DNA from: Rhodospirillaceae bacterium CCH5-H10
GTDB taxonomy: Bacteria > Pseudomonadota > Alphaproteobacteria > Reyranellales > Reyranellaceae
Length of the DNA: 10,504 nucleotides
Assembly (NCBI GenBank): GCA_001557035.1
Contig: LSKJ01000147.1
Location: 7,501-18,004, forward strand
Direction: 5' to 3'
Shown: in pieces, positions 110 to 10,504 of the stretch
How positions within the stretch are numbered: position 1 is the stretch's first letter
Layout of the letters: each line of letters opens with the position of its first letter
The notes under the pieces: model-generated
Told to the model about the DNA's origin: nothing
The model's database searches: none
What the model saw: only the letters and a program-made list of their open reading frames with translations
Position numbers and translations under genes: made by a program

Positions 110-2839
<2,730 letters not shown>

Positions 2840-2901: not shown

Positions 2902-3051
2902 CCTTTTGCATTCTGACGATCCGGTGGCTCTAGCGAGAGGTGTACACCCGATCCCATTCCGAACTCGGACGTGAAAACTCTCAGCGCCAATGGTACTGTG
3001 TCTCAAGGCACGGGAGAGTAGGTCGCTGCCGGATCTTCCGAATGCAAAGGG
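2902..3051 (+). other. 5S rRNA processing stem (arms 2902-2913 and 3040-3051)
   Basis: CCTTTTGCATTC at 2902-2913 pairs with GAATGCAAAGGG at 3040-3051 over 12 bp with one G-U pair, enclosing the 5S gene with a few unpaired bases on either side. This extends the normal 5S helix I outward and is most simply read as the precursor stem for 5S maturation. The pairing is seen directly; the nuclease involved is not. Confidence 0.75.
2918..3035 (+). rRNA. rrf: 5S ribosomal RNA, complete
   Basis: This is the structural RNA of the large subunit's central protuberance. The boundaries come from helix I, GATCCGG (2918-2924) with CCGGATC (3029-3035), giving about 118 nt. The mature ends may lie one or two bases further out. 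The conserved segments CCGATCCCATTCCGAACTCG and the CGCCAATGGTACTG stretch are both present. It lies 78 bases after 23S, the normal order in an rrn operon. Confidence 0.95.
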
Positions 3052-3089
3052 CACATTCCGATACGACGATCACTGCACGCGGGATTTGA

Positions 3090-3171
<82 letters not shown>

Positions 3172-3173
3172 TG

Positions 3174-3204
3174 AAAGCCGTTCTCGAAAGAGGACGGCTT
3201 TTTT
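3174..3204 (+). terminator. Intrinsic terminator of the rRNA operon
   Basis: The stem AAAGCCGTTCTC pairs with GAGGACGGCTTT (one G-U pair) around a stable GAAA tetraloop and runs into six Ts ending at 3204. It lies eight bases after the tRNA CCA end, so it should end rrn transcription. It also separates the rRNA operon from the metabolic operon that starts 29 bases later. Confidence 0.92.
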
Positions 3205-3221
3205 GCGTCGGCATGCCGGCT

Positions 3222-3226
3222 AGGAG
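3222..3226 (+). promoter_or_regulatory. Ribosome binding site deciding the start of the Mo-enzyme gene
   Basis: AGGAG lies seven bases before the ATG at 3234. The in-frame ATG at 3213 has no Shine-Dalgarno sequence and lies only nine bases after the terminator T-run, so 3234 is the better start. Confidence 0.8.
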
Positions 3227-3233
3227 ATCGCAG

Positions 3234-5597
3234 ATGCTTGGACCGCAGAAGATCCCGGCCTTTTGCACGCAATGCCGGTCGCGCTGCGGCTGCCTGGCCA
3301 TCGTCGAAGACGGGCGCTTGCGGGGGATCGAGCCCTTGCCGGATCATCCGACCGGCCAGGCGCTTTGTCCGAAGGGCCGGGCGGCACCCGAGCTCGTCTA
3401 TCATCCCGACCGCGTGACGACTCCTCTTCGGCGCACCCAACCGAAGGGCGCGGCCGATCCGGGGTGGACGCCGATCGGGTGGGGCGAGGCCCTGGCGGAA
3501 ATCACCTCTCGCCTGTCCGGCATCCGCGAGCTGCACGGCGCCGAGCAGGTGGCCTTCTCCGTCACCACCCCGAGCGGCTCTCATATTTCGGATTCGATTT
3601 CCTGGGTCGAGCGCTTCATTCGCGCCTTTGGCAGTCCGAACACGATCTACGGAACCGAAATCTGCAACTGGCACAAGGACTATGCCTCGCGCTTCACCTA
3701 CGGCCACGATATCGGCACGCCGGATTTCGCGAACACGGACTGCGTCGTGCTGTGGGGCAACAATCCCGCGGCGACCTGGCTGGCGCGCCAGGTAGAGATT
3801 CAGAAAGGCCTCAAGAACGGCGCGCGCATGATCGTGATCGATCCGCGGCCCACGGCGCTGGCGAAACGCGCCACTCAATGGCTGCGGGTGCGTCCCGGGA
3901 CGGACCAGGCGGTTGCCCTCGGGCTGGCGAACCTGCTGGTCTCGAGCGGACGCTTCGATCGCGCCTTCGCCGCGACCTGGACGAACGCCGGCCTGCTGGT
4001 GCGCTCCGACACGGGCCGCTTTCTGCGCCAAAGCGACCTGCAAGCCGATGGCCGGAGCGACGTTCTGTTTTCCCATGCCGGCGACGGCGGTGGCCTGTTG
4101 GCCGTCGATCCGACAAGCGAAGGTTCCGCCACGCCCGTCCTGAGGTGGAGCGGCACGGTCGAAACGCTGTCCGGTCCCGTCCTGTGTCACACCGCGCTGG
4201 AGTTGTTCGCGCGGGAAGCTGCCGAATTTCCGCCGGAGCGTGTCGCCGAAGTGAGTGGCATCGAGCCCGGCGACCTCGCAAAGGCCGCCGACATCATCGC
4301 CGGCGCGAAATCGGTTGCCTATTACGCGTGGAACGGCGTCGGGCAGAGCGTCACGGCCACCCAGACCGATCGCGCGATTTCGATTCTTTACGCCCTCACC
4401 GGCAGCTATGGCCGCAAGGGCGGCAACGTGCCGGGCGGCGCGGCGCCCTTCGTCGACATTTCCGGCCAGGATCTCCTGTCCGCGACACAGCGCGACAAGG
4501 CGCTCGGTCTTGCCGAGCGGCCTCTCGGTCCCGGCCTTCAAGGCTGGGTCACGGCCCGCGATGTCTACAAGGCCGTGCTGACGAACGCGCCCTATCCCGT
4601 GCGCATGTTGATGTCGTTCGGCACCAATCTCCTGTTGTCGCAGCCGGATACGGAAATCGCCCGCCAGGCGTTGTCGGCGCTGGAATTCCACGTCCACGCG
4701 GATTTCTTCGTCAACGCGACGGCCCGATACGCCGACATCATCCTCCCCGTCGCGACTTCGTGGGAGCGGGAAGGCTTGCGCACCGGTTTCGACGGCAGTC
4801 TCGAGGGACTGCGACATGTCCAGCTCCGGCCGCCCGTCGTCGCGCCCGTCGGCGAGGCCCGCTCCGACACCGACATCGTGATGGGGCTCGCCGCCGGGCT
4901 CGGCCTCGGTGATCGGATGTTCGACCTCGATGCCGATCGAGGCCACGACGCTGCCCTGGCCAAAACGGGACTGACCGTCGAGATGTTGCGCGGTTCTCCG
5001 GCGGGCCTCGTGGTCGAGGGCACAGCGCAGCTCGACGCCCAGACGGCTATGTCCGACGGCCGTCCCCGCGGCTACCCGACCCCGACCGGCAAAATCGAAA
5101 TCTATTCGGAGCGGCTGCTGCTCGCCGGCTACCGGCCGCTCCCCGGCCTCGACGTCAAAGATCTTTTGCCGGCCGACGCGAATTATCCGCTGCGCCTCGG
5201 CAGTGCCAAGAGCGTCGCCTATTGCCACAGCCAGCATCGCAATATCGATTCGCTGCGCCGGCTGGTCCCCGACCCGGTCGTGGAGATCTCGCCGGACGAT
5301 GCGGCGGCCCGCTCGATCGTTCAGCGCGACTGGGTTCGCATCAGGACGCGGAGCGGCGACGTGGTTGCCCGGGCCGCCATCGTGCCGGGACTCGCGCCCG
5401 GAGCCGTGTTCGGCCAGCACGGCTGGTGGGTCGATGGGAGCGACGGCACGCCGTATGATCGCAATCACCCCTTGGCGGCGAACCTGAACGGTGCGATCGC
5501 CACCGAGCGCGCCGATCCCGTCAGCGGTTCGATCCCGCTGCGGGCCTCATGGTGCGAGATCGAAAAGCTGAGCCGTCATGTCCAGCGATCCGATTGA
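3234..5597 (+). CDS. Molybdopterin-dependent oxidoreductase, 4Fe-4S, DMSO reductase family
   Basis: This is a 787-residue catalytic subunit of the Mo/W-bis-PGD (BisC/COG0243) superfamily. An N-terminal 4Fe-4S site is formed by C11-x2-C14-x3-C18-x26-C45, followed by the conserved CPKG lysine K47. The large molybdopterin core (about 55-620) includes C144 in EICNWHKD, placed where family members carry the Cys, SeCys or Ser ligand to the metal, then VVLWGNNPA, VIDPRPT and the ADIILPVATSWE stretch around D501-E511. PTPTGKIEIYSERL leads to the C-terminal cofactor-binding beta domain (about 650-775) with CHSQHRN at 664-670 and a late HGWW. There is no twin-arginine or hydrophobic leader, so it is probably cytoplasmic. 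No ferredoxin-like beta subunit follows it. The single-subunit layout recalls formate dehydrogenase-H or acetylene hydratase, but the residue after C14 is Arg, not the Asp used by acetylene hydratase. Family is confident; the substrate is unknown. Its end overlaps the next gene by 20 bases. Confidence 0.93.
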   Translation: MLGPQKIPAFCTQCRSRCGCLAIVEDGRLRGIEPLPDHPTGQALCPKGRAAPELVYHPDRVTTPLRRTQPKGAADPGWTPIGWGEALAEITSRLSGIRELHGAEQVAFSVTTPSGSHISDSISWVERFIRAFGSPNTIYGTEICNWHKDYASRFTYGHDIGTPDFANTDCVVLWGNNPAATWLARQVEIQKGLKNGARMIVIDPRPTALAKRATQWLRVRPGTDQAVALGLANLLVSSGRFDRAFAATWTNAGLLVRSDTGRFLRQSDLQADGRSDVLFSHAGDGGGLLAVDPTSEGSATPVLRWSGTVETLSGPVLCHTALELFAREAAEFPPERVAEVSGIEPGDLAKAADIIAGAKSVAYYAWNGVGQSVTATQTDRAISILYALTGSYGRKGGNVPGGAAPFVDISGQDLLSATQRDKALGLAERPLGPGLQGWVTARDVYKAVLTNAPYPVRMLMSFGTNLLLSQPDTEIARQALSALEFHVHADFFVNATARYADIILPVATSWEREGLRTGFDGSLEGLRHVQLRPPVVAPVGEARSDTDIVMGLAAGLGLGDRMFDLDADRGHDAALAKTGLTVEMLRGSPAGLVVEGTAQLDAQTAMSDGRPRGYPTPTGKIEIYSERLLLAGYRPLPGLDVKDLLPADANYPLRLGSAKSVAYCHSQHRNIDSLRRLVPDPVVEISPDDAAARSIVQRDWVRIRTRSGDVVARAAIVPGLAPGAVFGQHGWWVDGSDGTPYDRNHPLAANLNGAIATERADPVSGSIPLRASWCEIEKLSRHVQRSD

Positions 5598-6354
5598 TCT
5601 CTTCCGCCTGAAAGGGCGCACCGCCCTGGTGACCGGCGCCCGCCGGGAAATCGGCCGGGCCATCGCGCTCGCGCTGGGCCGCGCCGGTGCGCAGGTTGCA
5701 GTTCACCATGCAGGCACGTCCGAGGAGGAAGCGGATGCCAGGGCCGTCGCCGGCGAGATCGAACGGGATGGCGGAACCGCGCGCGCCTTCGCGCAGGACT
5801 TCGCGCTCGACGATGCCGGGCGCCGGCTGGCCGAGACCGTGTCGGCCTGGTCGCCGGTCGACATCCTGGTGCTGAACGCCTCGATCGAAATGCCGGAACC
5901 CTTCGAGGCGATCGATCGCGAGCGGTTCGACCGGCAGATCGCGGTCAACCTGCGGAGCCCGATGGAACTGCTGCAGGAACTGGTCCCGCCGATGGGGCGC
6001 CGCGGCTGGGGACGCGTCGTCACGATCGGCAGCGTCCAGCAGGTCAGGCCGCATCCCCGCATGCTGGTCTATGCCGGGACCAAGGCGGCGCAGTTGAACT
6101 GGGCCTGGAATCTCGCCCGGCAATTTGGTGGCCAGGGCGTCACGGTGAACAATCTCGCGCCCGGCGCCATCCTGACAGCGCGCAACCGCGAACAGATGGC
6201 GGTCGAGGGCGAGGCGCTGGCTCAACGCATTCCGACGGGCCGGCTCGGTCGGCCCGACGACCTGGTGGGCGCGGCCCTGCTTCTGTGCTCGGACGCCGGC
6301 GCCTACATCAACGGCGTCAATCTTTACGTCGATGGGGGACGCTCGATCGCCTAG
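5578..6354 (+). CDS. SDR-family NAD(P)-dependent dehydrogenase
   Basis: This 258-residue protein has the normal length for a classical short-chain dehydrogenase/reductase, which interconverts alcohols and ketones with NAD(P)H. Order of motifs: the Rossmann cofactor loop T19-G-A-R-R-E-I-G26, LNAS at 99-102 where NNAG is usual, N124, S152, then Y165-x3-K169. The N-S-Y-K catalytic tetrad is complete with correct spacing. GAYINGVNLYVDGG near the C-terminus is the usual tail. The middle glycine of TGxxxGxG is Glu24, and the NNAG element is altered, so cofactor binding may differ from the textbook enzyme. It starts inside the end of the Mo-enzyme gene and lacks a clear Shine-Dalgarno sequence, suggesting translational coupling. 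The nearest general label is 3-oxoacyl-ACP reductase/glucose dehydrogenase-like; the substrate is not recognisable. Confidence 0.93.
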   Translation: MSSDPIDLFRLKGRTALVTGARREIGRAIALALGRAGAQVAVHHAGTSEEEADARAVAGEIERDGGTARAFAQDFALDDAGRRLAETVSAWSPVDILVLNASIEMPEPFEAIDRERFDRQIAVNLRSPMELLQELVPPMGRRGWGRVVTIGSVQQVRPHPRMLVYAGTKAAQLNWAWNLARQFGGQGVTVNNLAPGAILTARNREQMAVEGEALAQRIPTGRLGRPDDLVGAALLLCSDAGAYINGVNLYVDGGRSIA

Positions 6355-6383
6355 GATCGAAGCCGTACGTCAACAGGGTTCAC

Positions 6384-6860
6384 ATGGCCGCCGCTCCCGA
6401 GACCCGACTTTCAGACGCCGAACGAGACGAGCTCGGGAAAATCGCCGGGACGATGGTTCCCGCAGACACAGCCCTCGGCATGCCGGGGGCCGACGATCCC
6501 CTCATCCTGGACGACATCGTGAGATCGCTGGGCCGCGATCTTCCGCTGGTGCGCGAGGCGCTCGCCGCCCTCTCGGCGAAGTCCGGCGGGGCGTTCGCCG
6601 CCAAGGACCAGGAGGCAAGGGAAGGGCTGATCAACGACTGGTATGCCGGCGGAGGTGCGCCCGCCGCCGCTCTCGGACGGGTGATCGTAAGTGCCTACTA
6701 TCGCGACGATCGCGTTTTGCGGGCGCTCGGGCACGAGGCGCGCGCGCCTTTCCCGAAGGGTTACGTGCTGGAGCAAGGCGACTGGTCTCTGCTCGACGTC
6801 GTGCGCAACCGGCCGAAGCTCTGGCGCGACGATCGAACCCTCCCGACGGGAGAGCGCTGA
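6384..6860 (+). CDS. Small subunit resembling gluconate 2-dehydrogenase subunit 3
   Basis: This 158-residue protein is probably the small partner of the GMC dehydrogenase encoded one base downstream. Its N-terminal LSDAERDELGKIAGTMVPAD (residues 9-28) followed by an Asp/Pro-rich segment resembles the opening of gluconate_2-dh3 proteins (L..L...I.PAD). The middle is helical and Ala-rich. Known members are small subunits of membrane or periplasmic FAD dehydrogenases and carry a Tat signal that exports the complex. This one begins directly with the domain and has no twin-arginine or hydrophobic leader, so the complex would stay in the cytoplasm. The start at 6384 has AGGG five bases upstream. 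A longer frame from 6285 overlaps the SDR gene and adds only Arg-rich shadow sequence. The family call is by resemblance plus context and is moderate. Confidence 0.72.
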   Translation: MAAAPETRLSDAERDELGKIAGTMVPADTALGMPGADDPLILDDIVRSLGRDLPLVREALAALSAKSGGAFAAKDQEAREGLINDWYAGGGAPAAALGRVIVSAYYRDDRVLRALGHEARAPFPKGYVLEQGDWSLLDVVRNRPKLWRDDRTLPTGER

Positions 6861-6861
6861 C

Positions 6862-8466
6862 ATGGCCGCGAACGAAAAGGTCGATGTCCTGATCATCGGC
6901 TCGGGCGCGTCGGGTGCGGCCGTGGCCTGGAGCCTGGCCGAAACGAAGATGCGGATCCTGTGCCTGGAGCAGGGCGACTGGATGAAGCCGACCGACTTCC
7001 CCAGCAACGGCCGCGACTGGGAGGCACGGCGCTACACCGATTTCGAGATCAGTCCCAACCGGCGCGGCCGCGACATCGACTATCCGATCAACGACGACAA
7101 TTCGCTGATGAAGATCGCCAACTTCAACGGCGTCGGCGGCGGCACGATCATCTACACCGCCCACTGGCCGCGCATGCATCCCTCGGATTTCCGGGTGAAG
7201 TCGCTGGATGGTGTGGCTGACGACTGGCCCGTCGACTACTGGGCGCTCGAAAAGTTCTACGACGAGAACGACCGGATGATGGGCGTCTCGGGCCTTGCCG
7301 GCGATCCCGGCGTACCCCCGCGCCATCCGCCGATGCCGCCGATCGGGCTCGGCAAGACCGGTACACGTTACGGCCAGGCGATGAACCGGCTGGGCTGGCA
7401 CTGGTGGCCGTCCGACAGCAGCATCGCCACCACCGACTATGAAGGCCGGGCCGGCTGCATCAATCTTGGCCATTGCACGCCGGGCTGCGCGCAGGGCGCC
7501 AAGGCCAGTACCGACATCACTTACTGGCCGCTGGCGCTGCGGGCCGGAGTCGAACTGCGCACGCGCTGCCGGGTGCGCGAGATCACCACCGACGAGCACG
7601 GCATGGCGGCCGGCGCGGTCTATTACGATGCCGATGGTGTCGAGCATTTCCAGCCGGCCGAGGTCGTCATCCTGGCCTGCAACGGCGTGGGCACGCCGCG
7701 CCTGCTGCTGAATTCGGCCTCCGCGAAGTTTCCGAACGGTCTCGCCAATTCGTCGGGCCTCGTGGGCAGGAACCTGATGCTTCATCCCTGGCCGATGGTG
7801 TCGGGGTATGTCGAGGAGCCGCTCGACGGCGGACGCGGTCCCATCAACACGATCTGGAGCAAGCAGTTCTACGAGACCGATCCGTCGCGCGACTTCGTCC
7901 GCGGCTACACGCTGCAGTTCAGCCGTGGCACCGGTCCGGTCAACCAGGCGATCGTGGGCGCTGCCTCCGGCCTCCTGCCGTGGGGCCGCGATCATCATCG
8001 CCAGTACCGGCAGATGCTGGATCGCCGGCTGAACATCGGTGTCGCCTGCGAGGACCTGCCGGAGGAGCACAACCGGGTCACGCTCGATCCCGTCCTGAAG
8101 GACAGCAACGGCATACCGGCGCCCAGGATCGACTACACGATCAGCGAGAACACGCGCCGCATGATGGAGCACGGCATTGCCCGTGCCGAGGAGATCCTGA
8201 CGGAAGCCGGCGCCACACGACTCTACTGCTCGCGCACGGCGCTGAACTATCCGGGCCACTTGCTCGGCACGGCGCGGATGGGCACCGATCCCGAGCGCTC
8301 GGTGGTGAACGAATGGGGCCGGAGCCACGACGTCAGGAACCTGTTCATCGTCGACGGCAGCATCTGGGTCACGTCGGGCGGCGTGAACCCGACCTCGACC
8401 ATCCAGGCCCTGGCGCTCTACATCGCCGATCAGATGAAGCAGCGGCTGGCCACGCTTTTCGACTGA
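6862..8466 (+). CDS. GMC-family FAD dehydrogenase with predicted Fe-S cluster
   Basis: This 534-residue catalytic subunit of the glucose-methanol-choline flavoprotein family oxidises an alcohol or sugar hydroxyl. The FAD-binding start is G13-S-G-A-S-G18, with E36 ending the second strand (LCLEQGD). NGVGGGTIIY is the second flavin loop, and NGVGTPRLLLNSAS is the second GMC signature. The C-terminal domain has H466 in GHLLGTARMG and N509 in GGVNPTST, the expected catalytic His/Asn pair. C199-x5-C205-x3-C209 (GCINLGHCTPGC) matches the spacing that binds a 3Fe-4S cluster in bacterial FAD-glucose dehydrogenase. Relatives include gluconate, fructose, sorbitol and glucoside 3-dehydrogenases. No signal peptide is present. 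GGGAGAG-type Shine-Dalgarno (6848-6854) lies seven bases before the ATG, and the gap to the small-subunit gene is one base. No cytochrome c subunit gene is in the window, so the electron acceptor is unknown. Confidence 0.93.
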   Translation: MAANEKVDVLIIGSGASGAAVAWSLAETKMRILCLEQGDWMKPTDFPSNGRDWEARRYTDFEISPNRRGRDIDYPINDDNSLMKIANFNGVGGGTIIYTAHWPRMHPSDFRVKSLDGVADDWPVDYWALEKFYDENDRMMGVSGLAGDPGVPPRHPPMPPIGLGKTGTRYGQAMNRLGWHWWPSDSSIATTDYEGRAGCINLGHCTPGCAQGAKASTDITYWPLALRAGVELRTRCRVREITTDEHGMAAGAVYYDADGVEHFQPAEVVILACNGVGTPRLLLNSASAKFPNGLANSSGLVGRNLMLHPWPMVSGYVEEPLDGGRGPINTIWSKQFYETDPSRDFVRGYTLQFSRGTGPVNQAIVGAASGLLPWGRDHHRQYRQMLDRRLNIGVACEDLPEEHNRVTLDPVLKDSNGIPAPRIDYTISENTRRMMEHGIARAEEILTEAGATRLYCSRTALNYPGHLLGTARMGTDPERSVVNEWGRSHDVRNLFIVDGSIWVTSGGVNPTSTIQALALYIADQMKQRLATLFD

Positions 8467-8522
8467 TCGCCCAGCGGTCATGGCTGGCGCGGCGGAAGAT
8501 GTTGCGCCACAGTCGGGACGAC

Positions 8523-9275
8523 ATGCGCGCCATCATCATCGGAGCCGGGCGGGGCAGCCGGCTCATGCCCACCACCGAAGACGCCCCCAAATGCTATGCC
8601 GAGATCCAGGGCAAACGCATCCTGGACTGGACGGTCGAAGCCTTGAGAGGCGGCGGCTGCACCGAGATCGTATTCATCGGCGGCTATCGCATCGACTCGG
8701 TGAAGCGCGACTATCCGGATTTCATCTTCCGCGAGAACGTGGACTGGCCGAACAACAACATCCTCGTCTCGCTGATGTGCGCCGAGGACCTGATGGACCG
8801 GCCCTTCGTCACCAGCTACTCGGACATCCTGTTCACGAAGGAGGTCGTGCGCGGCCTGGTCGACTCGAAGGACGAGTTGGCGCTCGGCGTCGATACCGAC
8901 TGGCGGGAGCATTACAAGCCCAGGACCCAGCATCCGCCGCATGACGCGGAGAAGGTGATCACGCGCGGCGATCGGGTCGAGCGCGTCTACCGCACGATCC
9001 CCTACGAGGATGCGACCGGCGAATTCATCGGCGTGGCGAAGTTCGGCGCCGAGGGCGCGCGCCGGTTCCGCGAGTTCTATCATCTCCGCAAGGCCGAGTT
9101 CTGGGACAAGCCCTATCGCGAGGCGGCGATCTTCCAGAAGGCGTACCTGATCCACATGTTCCAGGACATGATCGAGCAGGGAATGTCGTTCGGCCACGCA
9201 GACACGCCGGGCAAGTATCGCGAGATCGATACGCAGGAAGACATGAATCTGGCCCAGACCCTGTGGAAGCCTTGA
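8523..9275 (+). CDS. Nucleotidyltransferase, phosphocholine cytidylyltransferase/LicC-like
   Basis: This 250-residue single-domain nucleotidyltransferase transfers a nucleotide from an NTP to a phosphorylated small molecule. The GAGRGSRLMP loop (7-16) with K23 (APKCYAEI) binds the NTP. D101 in SYSDILF and D236 in REIDTQEDM are the expected metal-binding pair. The middle, with NNNILVSL, the TDWREHY segment, AEKVI and GEFIGVAKF at 166-174, follows the pattern of phosphocholine and alcohol- or phosphonate-type cytidylyltransferases more than hexose-phosphate enzymes. That narrower call is tentative. Start at 8523 is chosen because the protein then begins MRAIIIGAGRG as in the family, with GGGA four bases upstream. 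An in-frame ATG at 8499 would add eight residues. The 56-base gap before it is the largest in the operon. No kinase or downstream transferase that would explain its product is present. Confidence 0.88.
   Translation: MRAIIIGAGRGSRLMPTTEDAPKCYAEIQGKRILDWTVEALRGGGCTEIVFIGGYRIDSVKRDYPDFIFRENVDWPNNNILVSLMCAEDLMDRPFVTSYSDILFTKEVVRGLVDSKDELALGVDTDWREHYKPRTQHPPHDAEKVITRGDRVERVYRTIPYEDATGEFIGVAKFGAEGARRFREFYHLRKAEFWDKPYREAAIFQKAYLIHMFQDMIEQGMSFGHADTPGKYREIDTQEDMNLAQTLWKP
9265..9269 (+). promoter_or_regulatory. Ribosome binding site of the MetE-like gene, inside the preceding gene
   Basis: GGAAG lies seven bases before the ATG at 9277, entirely within the last codons of the nucleotidyltransferase gene. 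Stop and start are one base apart, a layout that favours coupled translation of the two proteins. Confidence 0.65.
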
Positions 9276-9276
9276 A

Positions 9277-10338
9277 ATGAAGACCCTGCCGCTGTTTCCC
9301 GCCTCCATCGTCGGTTCGATCCCGCGCCCGCTCGTGGTGCGCGAGCTGATCGAGAAGCCCGAGTGGGACGAGACCGACCGAAACACGATGGACGCCGCCA
9401 TCCGCTTCGTCGTGGCGCTGCAGGAACGCGCCGGCCTGGACGTGGTGAACGATGGGGAATGGCGTCGCCGCTCGTACATCGGCGTGATCGCCGAGTTGGC
9501 GCACGGCTTCACCCTGGAGATCAATCCGGCGGACGGGCGGCCCTGGACCGTCGTCACTGAGAAACTGACGCCCAAGCCGGCCGGCTTCATCGCGGCCGAG
9601 GCGAAGTTCGTGAAGGAGATCGCGAAGGTCGCCACCAAGATCACGCTGCCGGCGCCGGCGTTGCTGGGCGAGCGGCTGTGGGACAAGGGACGGTCGGGGA
9701 AGGCCTATCCGAAGCGCGAGGACTTCGTGCGCGACTGCGTGGCGCCTCTGCGTGCCGAGATCGCGCTGCTGCAGGACATGGGCGTCGAGATCGTGCAGAT
9801 CGACGATCCGCATCTTTGCCTGTTCGTCGATCCCGACGTGCGCCGGAGCTACGAGGATCCCGATCGCGCCGCCGACTTTGCCGTCGAGATGATCAACGAG
9901 ACGGTGAAGGGCTTCGACGGGATCAAGTTCGCCGTCCATCTCTGCCGCCGTGCCGGCGCGCGCGTGCGCGGCGAGAAGCACCATGCCGGCACCTACGGGC
10001 CGATCCTGAACCAGCTCAACAGGCTCGAGGTGCAGCATCTCACGATGGAGTTCACCGCCGCCGGCGCCGACGATCTCGAGAGCCTGGGCCGCCTGCGCGA
10101 GGATTTCGAGCTGGGTCTCGGCGTCGTCGACGTGACGCCGGGTGCGCCGGAGGCTGCCGCGCTGATCGTGTCGCGGGTCGAGCGGGCGCTGACCCGCATC
10201 GACAAGAAGCGCATCACCCTCAACCCGGACTGCGGCTTCGCTCCGGGCTCGGCGGCGAAGGTCGATACCGACGAGGTCTATCTCAAGTTGAAAGCCGAAG
10301 CCGAGGCGGCACGGACGCTGCGCGCGAAGTACGCTTAG
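9277..10338 (+). CDS. MetE C-terminal-domain-like zinc enzyme (core-MetE type)
   Basis: This 353-residue protein matches only the catalytic C-terminal half of cobalamin-independent methionine synthase, about half the length of full MetE (roughly 750 residues). All four zinc ligands are recognisable: H221-x-C223 in VHLCRR, E258 in LTMEF, and C319 in NPDCGF. N-terminal SIVGSIPRP and GLDVVNDGEWRR, then EIVQIDDP, are the conserved barrel elements of the family. Family members use zinc to activate a thiolate that attacks an alkyl donor. Besides true methionine synthases, the group includes epoxyalkane:coenzyme M transferase and several uncharacterised short forms. The N-terminal half that helps bind the folate in full MetE is missing, so a normal folate-dependent reaction is not assured. 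Placement at the end of a redox operon suggests a dedicated thiol-alkylation step rather than housekeeping methionine synthesis. The specific substrate is unknown. Confidence 0.9.
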   Translation: MKTLPLFPASIVGSIPRPLVVRELIEKPEWDETDRNTMDAAIRFVVALQERAGLDVVNDGEWRRRSYIGVIAELAHGFTLEINPADGRPWTVVTEKLTPKPAGFIAAEAKFVKEIAKVATKITLPAPALLGERLWDKGRSGKAYPKREDFVRDCVAPLRAEIALLQDMGVEIVQIDDPHLCLFVDPDVRRSYEDPDRAADFAVEMINETVKGFDGIKFAVHLCRRAGARVRGEKHHAGTYGPILNQLNRLEVQHLTMEFTAAGADDLESLGRLREDFELGLGVVDVTPGAPEAAALIVSRVERALTRIDKKRITLNPDCGFAPGSAAKVDTDEVYLKLKAEAEAARTLRAKYA

Positions 10339-10372: not shown

Positions 10373-10476
10373 CCTCATGCTGAGGAGCGCTCCAAAAGAG
10401 CGCGTCTCGAAGCATGGGCATCAGCACCACGTTTGTTGCCCATCCTTCGAGACGGCCCTTCGGGTCTCCTCAGGAT
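10373..10476. repeat. Large imperfect palindromic element, truncated by the sequence end
   Basis: Nested inverted arms are visible. CTGAGGAG (10380-10387) pairs with CTCCTCAG (10466-10473), and CGTCTCGAAGCATGGGCA (10403-10420) pairs with TGCCCATCCTTCGAGACG (10437-10454) with one mismatch, around a 16-base loop. Smaller side hairpins (GCGCTC/GAGCGC at 10388-10402 and a GACGGCCCTTCGGGTC-type one at 10451-10466) sit within the arms. This resembles dispersed palindromic repeats common between genes of several Alphaproteobacteria; the family assignment is from memory of the CTGAGGAG...CGTCTCGAAG...CTTCGAGACG pattern. It lies 34 bases after the last gene and could also fold as a transcription stop. 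The outermost right arm (matching CCTCATG) is lost to the adapter. Confidence 0.82.
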
Positions 10477-10504
10477 CTGTCTCTTATACACATCTCCGAG
10501 CCCA
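10477..10504. other. Illumina Nextera transposase adapter (non-genomic)
   Basis: Bases 10477-10495 are CTGTCTCTTATACACATCT, the Tn5 mosaic end used in Nextera libraries. Bases 10496-10504 (CCGAGCCCA) continue as the read-2 adapter does. A 28-base exact run of this kind at a sequence end is untrimmed adapter, not a resident Tn5 insertion, because no transposon sequence follows. Confidence 0.97.

Follow-up and report, generated by a model that had tools for sequence, protein, structure and literature searches.

Do the six closely spaced genes that follow a ribosomal RNA (rRNA) cluster in Rhodospirillaceae bacterium CCH5-H10 serve one pathway, or is only part of the run a functional unit? The stretch analysed (contig LSKJ01000147.1, positions 7,501 to 18,004; 10,504 nucleotides in total, hereafter the window) encodes a molybdopterin oxidoreductase (Mo), an SDR oxidoreductase, a GMC small-subunit-like protein with its GMC oxidoreductase, a nucleotidyltransferase (NTP) and a MetE-like enzyme. 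The window was Reyranella-like, its nearest relatives by NTP being Reyranella (R. aquatilis, 95%). The conserved unit of the window was the pair formed by its last two genes:

8523..9275, + strand: NTP, LicC/PntC-type nucleotidyltransferase of the NTP transferase family, first gene of the conserved pair
9277..10338, + strand: MetE-like core enzyme with a Meth_synt_2 catalytic domain, second gene of the conserved pair

Conservation and distribution of the gene pair

A pattern-based scan with NTP, covering 84,980 species by a single genome each, yielded 42 loci; its short, exact patterns detect close relatives only. The MetE-like gene adjoined NTP in all 42 (truncated at the contig edge in L035, L059 and L060), and the gap between the two genes ranged from -13 to +19 bases in 40 loci, with 111 and 209 in the other two. 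The reverse search covered 61 relatives, 37 of them genomes of the genus, with G001 and other relatives standing in for the genome of the window; the MetE-like family was detected in 10, the same genomes and contigs as NTP, its members scoring 642-656 bits against 177 for the next paralogue. Pairwise distances of the two proteins were correlated (r=0.95 over 41 full pairs, with 0 of 2000 permutations as high), as expected for linked genes. The ratio of nonsynonymous to synonymous substitutions (dN/dS) against locus L127 of genome G394 was 0.10 and 0.04 for the pair.

The pair was rare and patchy among phylum and class genomes. A phylum-wide MetE-like profile search (E <= 1e-70) matched one of 398 genomes, G001 itself, and a class-wide NTP profile search (E <= 1e-40) matched 10 of 385, five of them at E below 1e-138. 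The other five ranged from 4e-51 to 2e-42, and four of these displayed no MetE-like match up to 19 kb away or to the contig end, the fifth (G224) lying outside this reading. Records named Verrucomicrobia, Planctomycetaceae, Poribacteria, Rokuibacteriota and Betaproteobacteria were included in the 42 loci, although names of metagenome-assembled genomes (MAGs) may be wrong, and the most distant aligned MetE-like members retained 50-65% identity to that of the window. On viral contigs 22 stretches matched the pattern and none encoded a relative, while 63 plasmid records matched NTP, all at <60% identity (24-32% in the 25 listed, with no methionine synthase named under the match).

Homologous clusters numbered 4532 for the MetE-like protein (E <= 1e-30, of 7999 candidates scored) and 5055 for NTP (E <= 1e-20, of 7996 scored), at cut-offs that may include neighbouring families. 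In the best 120 rows, NTP relatives were named 'phosphocholine cytidylyltransferase family protein', 'choline kinase' or 'L-glutamine-phosphate cytidylyltransferase', and MetE-like relatives '...homocysteine methyltransferase' or 'methionine synthase II family'. The enzyme pair is apparently widespread and uncharacterised, and the accessible portions of the literature retrieved held no description of it.

Do the six genes form one system?

The initial annotation had described six same-strand open reading frames (ORFs), which were present exactly with the strand and spacing claimed (an overlap of 20 bases, then gaps of 29, 1, 56 and 1 bases from Mo to the MetE-like gene). Its gene families for Mo, SDR, the GMC pair, the LicC-like NTP and the MetE-like enzyme were also upheld by Pfam and NCBIfam, with the small subunit (158 aa) having no significant Pfam match and no NCBIfam family. 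Upstream of the pair, the window comprised:

110..2839, + strand: 23S rRNA (Rfam RF02541, 2702 bits)
2920..3034, + strand: 5S rRNA (Rfam RF00001, 88.9 bits)
3090..3166, + strand: tRNA-Met, anticodon CAT (ARAGORN), upstream boundary of the variable segment
about 3174..3204, + strand: terminator-like hairpin after the tRNA, with a stem of ~12 pairs, a GAAA loop and a T run (by eye)
3234..5597, + strand: Mo, single-subunit molybdopterin oxidoreductase with an Fe4S4 domain (Pfam PF00384, PF01568, PF04879), guest gene
5578..6354, + strand: SDR oxidoreductase (Pfam PF13561/PF00106), guest gene
6384..6860, + strand: GMC small-subunit-like protein, 158 aa, near GMC in 30 of the 30 loci L073-L102
6862..8466, + strand: GMC oxidoreductase of the FAD-glucose/fructose dehydrogenase large-subunit type (Pfam PF05199/PF00732; PDB 6a2u, E 4e-61, and 7w2j, E 1.2e-56)

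The start of Mo at 3234 was favoured over an in-frame ATG at 3213 because AGGAG precedes it. The GMC protein matched chains of FAD-glucose and fructose dehydrogenases and carried C-x5-C-x3-C, which we take to be the 3Fe-4S motif of these enzymes. Since dN/dS against L127 was 0.04-0.33 across the six genes, all of them look real and constrained, and none is apparently decaying. One in-frame stop was seen in each of two Mo orthologues (L103 in G034, L108 in G025), which may reflect assembly error or decay.

That all six genes make up one operon and one pathway, as first proposed, now seems very improbable. Their close same-strand spacing and shared constraint speak for it, as does the gene order: G394 (L127) displayed the full order at 86-97% identity, directly behind 23S, 5S and tRNA-Met, and G034 the same order divided between two contig ends. 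Apart from these two genomes, however, the six genes neither co-occurred beyond chance nor stayed adjacent in relatives, the very comparison by which the initial annotation had proposed to judge its system. Among the 37 genus genomes, NTP was found in 10 (at least 80% identity), the GMC orthologue in 22 (at least 81%) and Mo in 8 (at least 86%); independent presence would have put NTP together with GMC in 5.9 genomes and with Mo in 2.2, and the observed numbers were 6 and 2. In the six genomes holding both NTP and GMC, the two were adjacent in G034, ~5.7 kb apart in G001 and on separate contigs in the other four. Single gene absences mean little, since genome completeness varies.

The locus survey, which displayed the same trend, overlaps with the genus survey: by their coordinates, L031 and L032 coincide with contigs of G001 and G034. 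Close SDR or GMC orthologues were near NTP in 3 of the 42 loci, namely L031 (GMC ~5.7 kb from NTP), L032 (small-subunit and GMC genes, at a contig edge) and L033 (SDR and both GMC genes). Mo was near the pair in none of the 42; the contigs of L032 and L033 stop short of its position, it is non-adjacent in L031, it lies on another contig than NTP in G001, and G034 has Mo, SDR and the small-subunit gene on another contig end. A close SDR (74-95%) adjoined GMC genes in L074, L075, L077-L081 and L103. Distant SDRs (27-38% to SDR references) in several of the 42 loci, adjoining the pair in L054 and L072, were excluded as the SDR of the window. Judged from these gene sequences and their placement, the six genes are best described as separate modules gathered in a few close relatives, and not as one ancient pathway.

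Origin of the run

The six-gene run begins directly behind the rRNA-5S-tRNA-Met cluster, a point that the initial annotation had not stated. Among 12 loci scanned, tRNA-Met was found upstream of the pair in L127 and L036, in both cases behind 23S and 5S. Flanks were compared in 17 loci. Four genes located 3' of the MetE-like gene (TetR-, GST-, DUF4198- and enoyl-CoA hydratase-like, by eye) occurred together in L127, L031, L033, L036 and L037; L034 shared three of the four, L032, L039 and L042 shared one, and the remaining eight loci had none, although the sequences of L035 and L040 break off shortly past the pair. On the upstream side, PhnC-D-E-E preceded the pair in L034, L037 and L040, whereas L036 and L039 had other, non-Phn genes there. 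L031 and L033 carried the GMC trio, to which Mo was added in the window and L127. The recurrent downstream flank and the varying upstream content suggest that the run arose by an exchange of modules in the space from tRNA-Met to the pair. In several Reyranella loci PhnCDE-like genes thus occupy the position that Mo, SDR and GMC have in the window; those of L034, L037 and L040, the first two with the same downstream flank, argue further against a six-gene pathway. The Mo, SDR and GMC redox genes look, from the arrangement of these loci, to have come beside the pair through local rearrangement. The case illustrates how a locus behind a tRNA gene may collect modules into a false operon.

A promoter and terminator scan of the window gave nothing above shuffles (one promoter site for 0.7 expected, three terminator sites for 2.8), and the hairpin at ~3174-3204 was absent from its output.

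Gene neighbours of the pair

Genes around the pair pointed to the uptake and breakdown of organophosphorus compounds. PhnC/D/E-type genes were present in 14 of the 42 loci (L034, L035, L037, L038, L040, L041, L042, L045, L047, L055, L056, L057, L062, L064), Ugp-type genes in 16 (L038, L043, L044, L045, L046, L048-L054, L058, L059, L063, L065) and OPA-type genes in 2 (L066, L071). Organophosphorus-type transporters were thus found in 30 loci overall, two of them sharing Phn- and Ugp-type genes. L042, L043, L055 and L056 contributed a single transporter gene each, at or near a contig edge, and the UgpA and UgpE matches of L063 reached only 28-30%. A SpdA- or PehA-like hydrolase was found in 16 loci (SpdA-like phosphodiesterase in 14, PehA-like in 2) and an RpiR-type regulator in 10. 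Gene calls around the loci were crude (based on G+C content at third codon positions, GC3), and TetR, GST, carotenoid oxygenase, beta-lactamase-like, DUF4198, enoyl-CoA hydratase and the L061 hydrolase (no NCBIfam match) were named by eye.

A PhnD-like gene occurred within ~10 kb of the pair in 11 of the 42 loci. In 15 Reyranella genomes totalling ~91 Mb, such genes numbered 24, including one adjacent to the pair, or about 1 per 3.8 Mb, so that PhnD near the pair is far above chance, kinship allowed for.

Catabolic genes for 2-aminoethylphosphonate (AEP) accompanied the pair in two MAGs named Beta-proteobacteria, with matches above NCBIfam cut-offs: PhnW and PhnY in L058, and PhnX, PbfA and an AEP-binding protein in L062, whose PhnW was 86% identical to that of L058. 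The upstream side of L041 encoded a binding protein of AEP type, 51% identical to its L062 counterpart, and a permease whose best match, PhnU2, was below cut-off. L062 also encoded (17750-20164) a fusion of an FAD-dependent oxidoreductase with a GcvT domain, whose GcvT- and sarcosine-oxidase-like matches stayed under the cut-offs. This protein, which lies close to the AEP catabolism genes, could be an N-methyl-AEP demethylase. As a general partner of the pair it was dropped: 11 of 12 genomes contained relatives, yet L062 was the only locus with one near the pair, apart from a match of 26% in L038. An FGGY pentulose kinase and an SDR recurred near the pair in L058, L072 and L128, where a sugar alcohol is presumably involved.

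These surroundings bear on whether the pair is biosynthetic, NTP activating with CMP a head group destined for lipids or surface glycans and the MetE-like enzyme acting as a tailoring alkyl transferase. Such a role would agree with LicC and PntC, which act in head-group biosynthesis according to PMC6697681, and with four distant NTP relatives (L129-L132), whose neighbours look biosynthetic by eye and include no MetE-like match. The recurrent neighbours of the pair are nevertheless importer-type and catabolic genes, and neither PEP mutase nor LicD was noticed beside it, though no search was aimed at them; we regard a biosynthetic role as quite unlikely. Near the NTP relatives of L130, L131 and L132 were genes that resembled, by eye, gamma-glutamyl hydrolases, as in phosphoramidate synthesis.

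Fold and key residues of the two proteins

The MetE-like protein (353 aa) carried PF01717 over residues 7-343, i.e., the catalytic domain without the N-terminal folate domain, and its structural matches were MesD and MetE. The zinc ligands of MetE (H641, C643, E665, C726) corresponded to H221, C223, E258 and C319, kept in all 41 sequences covering them, of 43. Aligned to MetE of Thermotoga maritima, the homocysteine residues (S433, E484 and D599 of MetE) corresponded to S14 and E61 (43 of 43) and D176 (41 of 41 covering). On these features the protein is a predicted core methionine synthase, with the residues for a zinc-homocysteine thiolate in place. An arginine-rich stretch came right behind the zinc ligands (R224, R225 and R229 in 41 of 41, R231 in 40 of 41), opposite a gap in T. 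maritima MetE and partly shared by 1ypx from Listeria; an anionic donor would fit such a stretch.

The structural model of NTP matched PntC best, followed by LicC, and NTP displayed the nucleotidyltransferase fold and family of these enzymes. According to PMC6697681, PntC Glu104 and LicC Asp105 sit next to the amine of the substrate. These residues come two positions before the metal Asp, and PntC E196 and LicC D192 form a second amine contact. PntC D106 aligned with D101 of NTP, which places E104 at Tyr99; the LicC profile alignment was shifted by one, and LicC was mapped by the x-x-D motif.

Proposed reaction and alternatives

The reading that we prefer, and in which we place about as much belief as doubt, is that the pair carries out cytidylyl activation of an organophosphorus compound, followed by zinc-thiolate methyl transfer to homocysteine. 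An organophosphorus compound (a phosphonate, or a phosphomonoester freed from a phosphodiester) would enter the cell. NTP would then couple it to cytidine monophosphate (CMP) from cytidine triphosphate (CTP) and set free pyrophosphate, in the manner of PntC acting on AEP and LicC on phosphocholine. The MetE-like enzyme would hold homocysteine as a zinc thiolate and take a methyl, or less likely another alkyl, from the CMP-linked compound, producing methionine or S-alkyl homocysteine. Candidate substrates would be N-methylated AEP, phosphocholine, a phosphate or phosphonate methyl ester and, as a remote option, methylphosphonate. An O-alkyl phosphate or phosphonate would give up its alkyl group more readily once linked to CMP; on an N-methyl donor, CMP would act as a handle.

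The probable role of NTP is to link CMP with a phosphonate or phosphomonoester, and the constant pairing of the two genes suggests the CMP-linked compound as the MetE-like donor. We infer that the product of NTP is the substrate of the MetE-like enzyme, that CTP is the nucleotide and that the reaction runs in this direction. The initial annotation had guessed at nucleotide activation and thiol alkylation along with oxidation and Mo-enzyme steps; the first two are retained for the last two genes, now with an organophosphorus substrate, while the GMC, SDR and Mo steps found no support.

Several observations weigh against this proposal. No counted transporter was found in the window, nor in 12 of the 42 loci (L031-L033, L036, L039, L060, L061, L067-L070, L072), some of whose contigs are short. 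The relatives of the window (G394, G034, G001) have only distant PhnD paralogues (33-36%), yet the pair stays constrained. The PhnD match was above the TIGR01098 (subfamily) cut-off but below that of TIGR03431 (equivalog), and UgpB-, SpdA-, PehA- and OPA-type (GlpT/PgtP-type) matches were all below NCBIfam equivalog cut-offs. AEP genes were near the pair in only 2-3 of the 42 loci, and the loci are non-independent, many being Reyranella or close kin. Inositol-phosphate and sugar nucleotidyltransferases ranked after LicC within 1 Z, so the substrate of NTP is not readable from its fold. Finally, the acidic residue expected from PntC and LicC at the first amine-contact position was replaced by Tyr99 in 43 of 43 sequences, which argues against an amine-bearing substrate.

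In a narrower version, the pair would be a methionine synthase that needs neither folate nor cobalamin and uses phosphocholine or N-trimethyl-AEP. NTP would make CDP-choline or CMP-trimethyl-AEP, and the MetE-like enzyme would pass an N-methyl to homocysteine, as betaine-homocysteine methyltransferase does with betaine. PntC and LicC are closest to NTP, both the Ugp-type transporters with SpdA/PehA-like hydrolases and the Phn-type transporters could supply such head groups, and L062 combines the FAD-GcvT protein (matches below cut-offs) with AEP genes. The invariant Tyr99 stands against this version, an N-methyl group is not chemically activated by CMP, and FAD-GcvT was close by at one locus only (plus the weak L038 match), which leaves it unlikely.

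Another possible substrate would be an O-methyl (or O-alkyl) ester of phosphate or phosphonate, for which the lack of an acidic residue at the first amine-contact position speaks. Cytidylylation would improve the P-O-CH3 leaving group and the zinc thiolate would take the methyl, giving a chemical reason for activation and methyl transfer staying together. The zinc thiolate of Ada attacks methyl phosphotriesters in a comparable way, and the SpdA/PehA-like hydrolases in 16 of the 42 loci are also consistent with such a substrate. Against it, a literature search gave nothing on point, and the AEP catabolism genes of L058 and L062 point to an aminophosphonate; we judge an O-methyl substrate unlikely.

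Other features of the window

An inverted repeat at 10403-10454 (21-nt arms, 90% complementary, 10 nt apart) lay just ahead of an adapter-like sequence at the window end and presumably is an intergenic palindromic element of alphaproteobacteria. We take 10475-10504, on which the initial annotation was also silent, to be an Illumina Nextera transposase adapter, the last ~30 bases thus being probably non-genomic and the ORF running off the window end artefactual there. On the minus strand, an antisense ORF across tRNA-Met (2981-3301) translated to a RGQDLNLRPSGYEPDELPG-type peptide, a common false protein, and a 781-aa ORF at 3123-5468 is likely spurious.

Comparison with known systems

The pair lay within or beside an AEP catabolism cluster (PhnW, PhnX, PhnY, PbfA) at L058 and L062, whereas the main text of the phosphonate catabolism papers examined did not contain the words nucleotidyl- or cytidyl-. 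CTP:phosphoglutamine cytidylyltransferases of the Cj1416 type belong to the same superfamily as NTP. Some database relatives of NTP bear the name L-glutamine-phosphate cytidylyltransferase (best 120 rows), and some plasmid relatives are annotated beside a gamma-glutamyl-gamma-aminobutyrate hydrolase family protein; among the rows listed, the five plasmid relatives so annotated differ from NTP, with 28-32% identity. With PntC and LicC (PDB 6pd2, 1jyk), NTP shares the nucleotidyltransferase fold, but it is 18-21% identical to them, has Tyr99 at the first amine-contact position, and is accompanied by importer-type genes and a MetE-like enzyme.

Like the core methionine synthases MesA-MesD (MesD, PDB 3rpd), the MetE-like protein consists of the catalytic domain alone, with zinc ligands HCEC and homocysteine residues S/E/D. 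It differs in being 22% identical to 3rpd over the structural alignment, in having a nucleotidyltransferase as its neighbour instead of MesX (DUF1852, absent from the six proteins of the window) and in its arginine-rich stretch after the zinc ligands. Tentatively, and with the balance of probability against it, the pair may add a fifth kind to the core methionine synthases, one that would draw its methyl group from a cytidylylated organophosphorus compound, i.e., a nucleotide-activated donor other than S-adenosylmethionine (SAM), joining phosphonate or phosphodiester use to methionine supply without folate or cobalamin. If so, the pair would explain a step in organic phosphorus use and would open a new chemical route to methionine.

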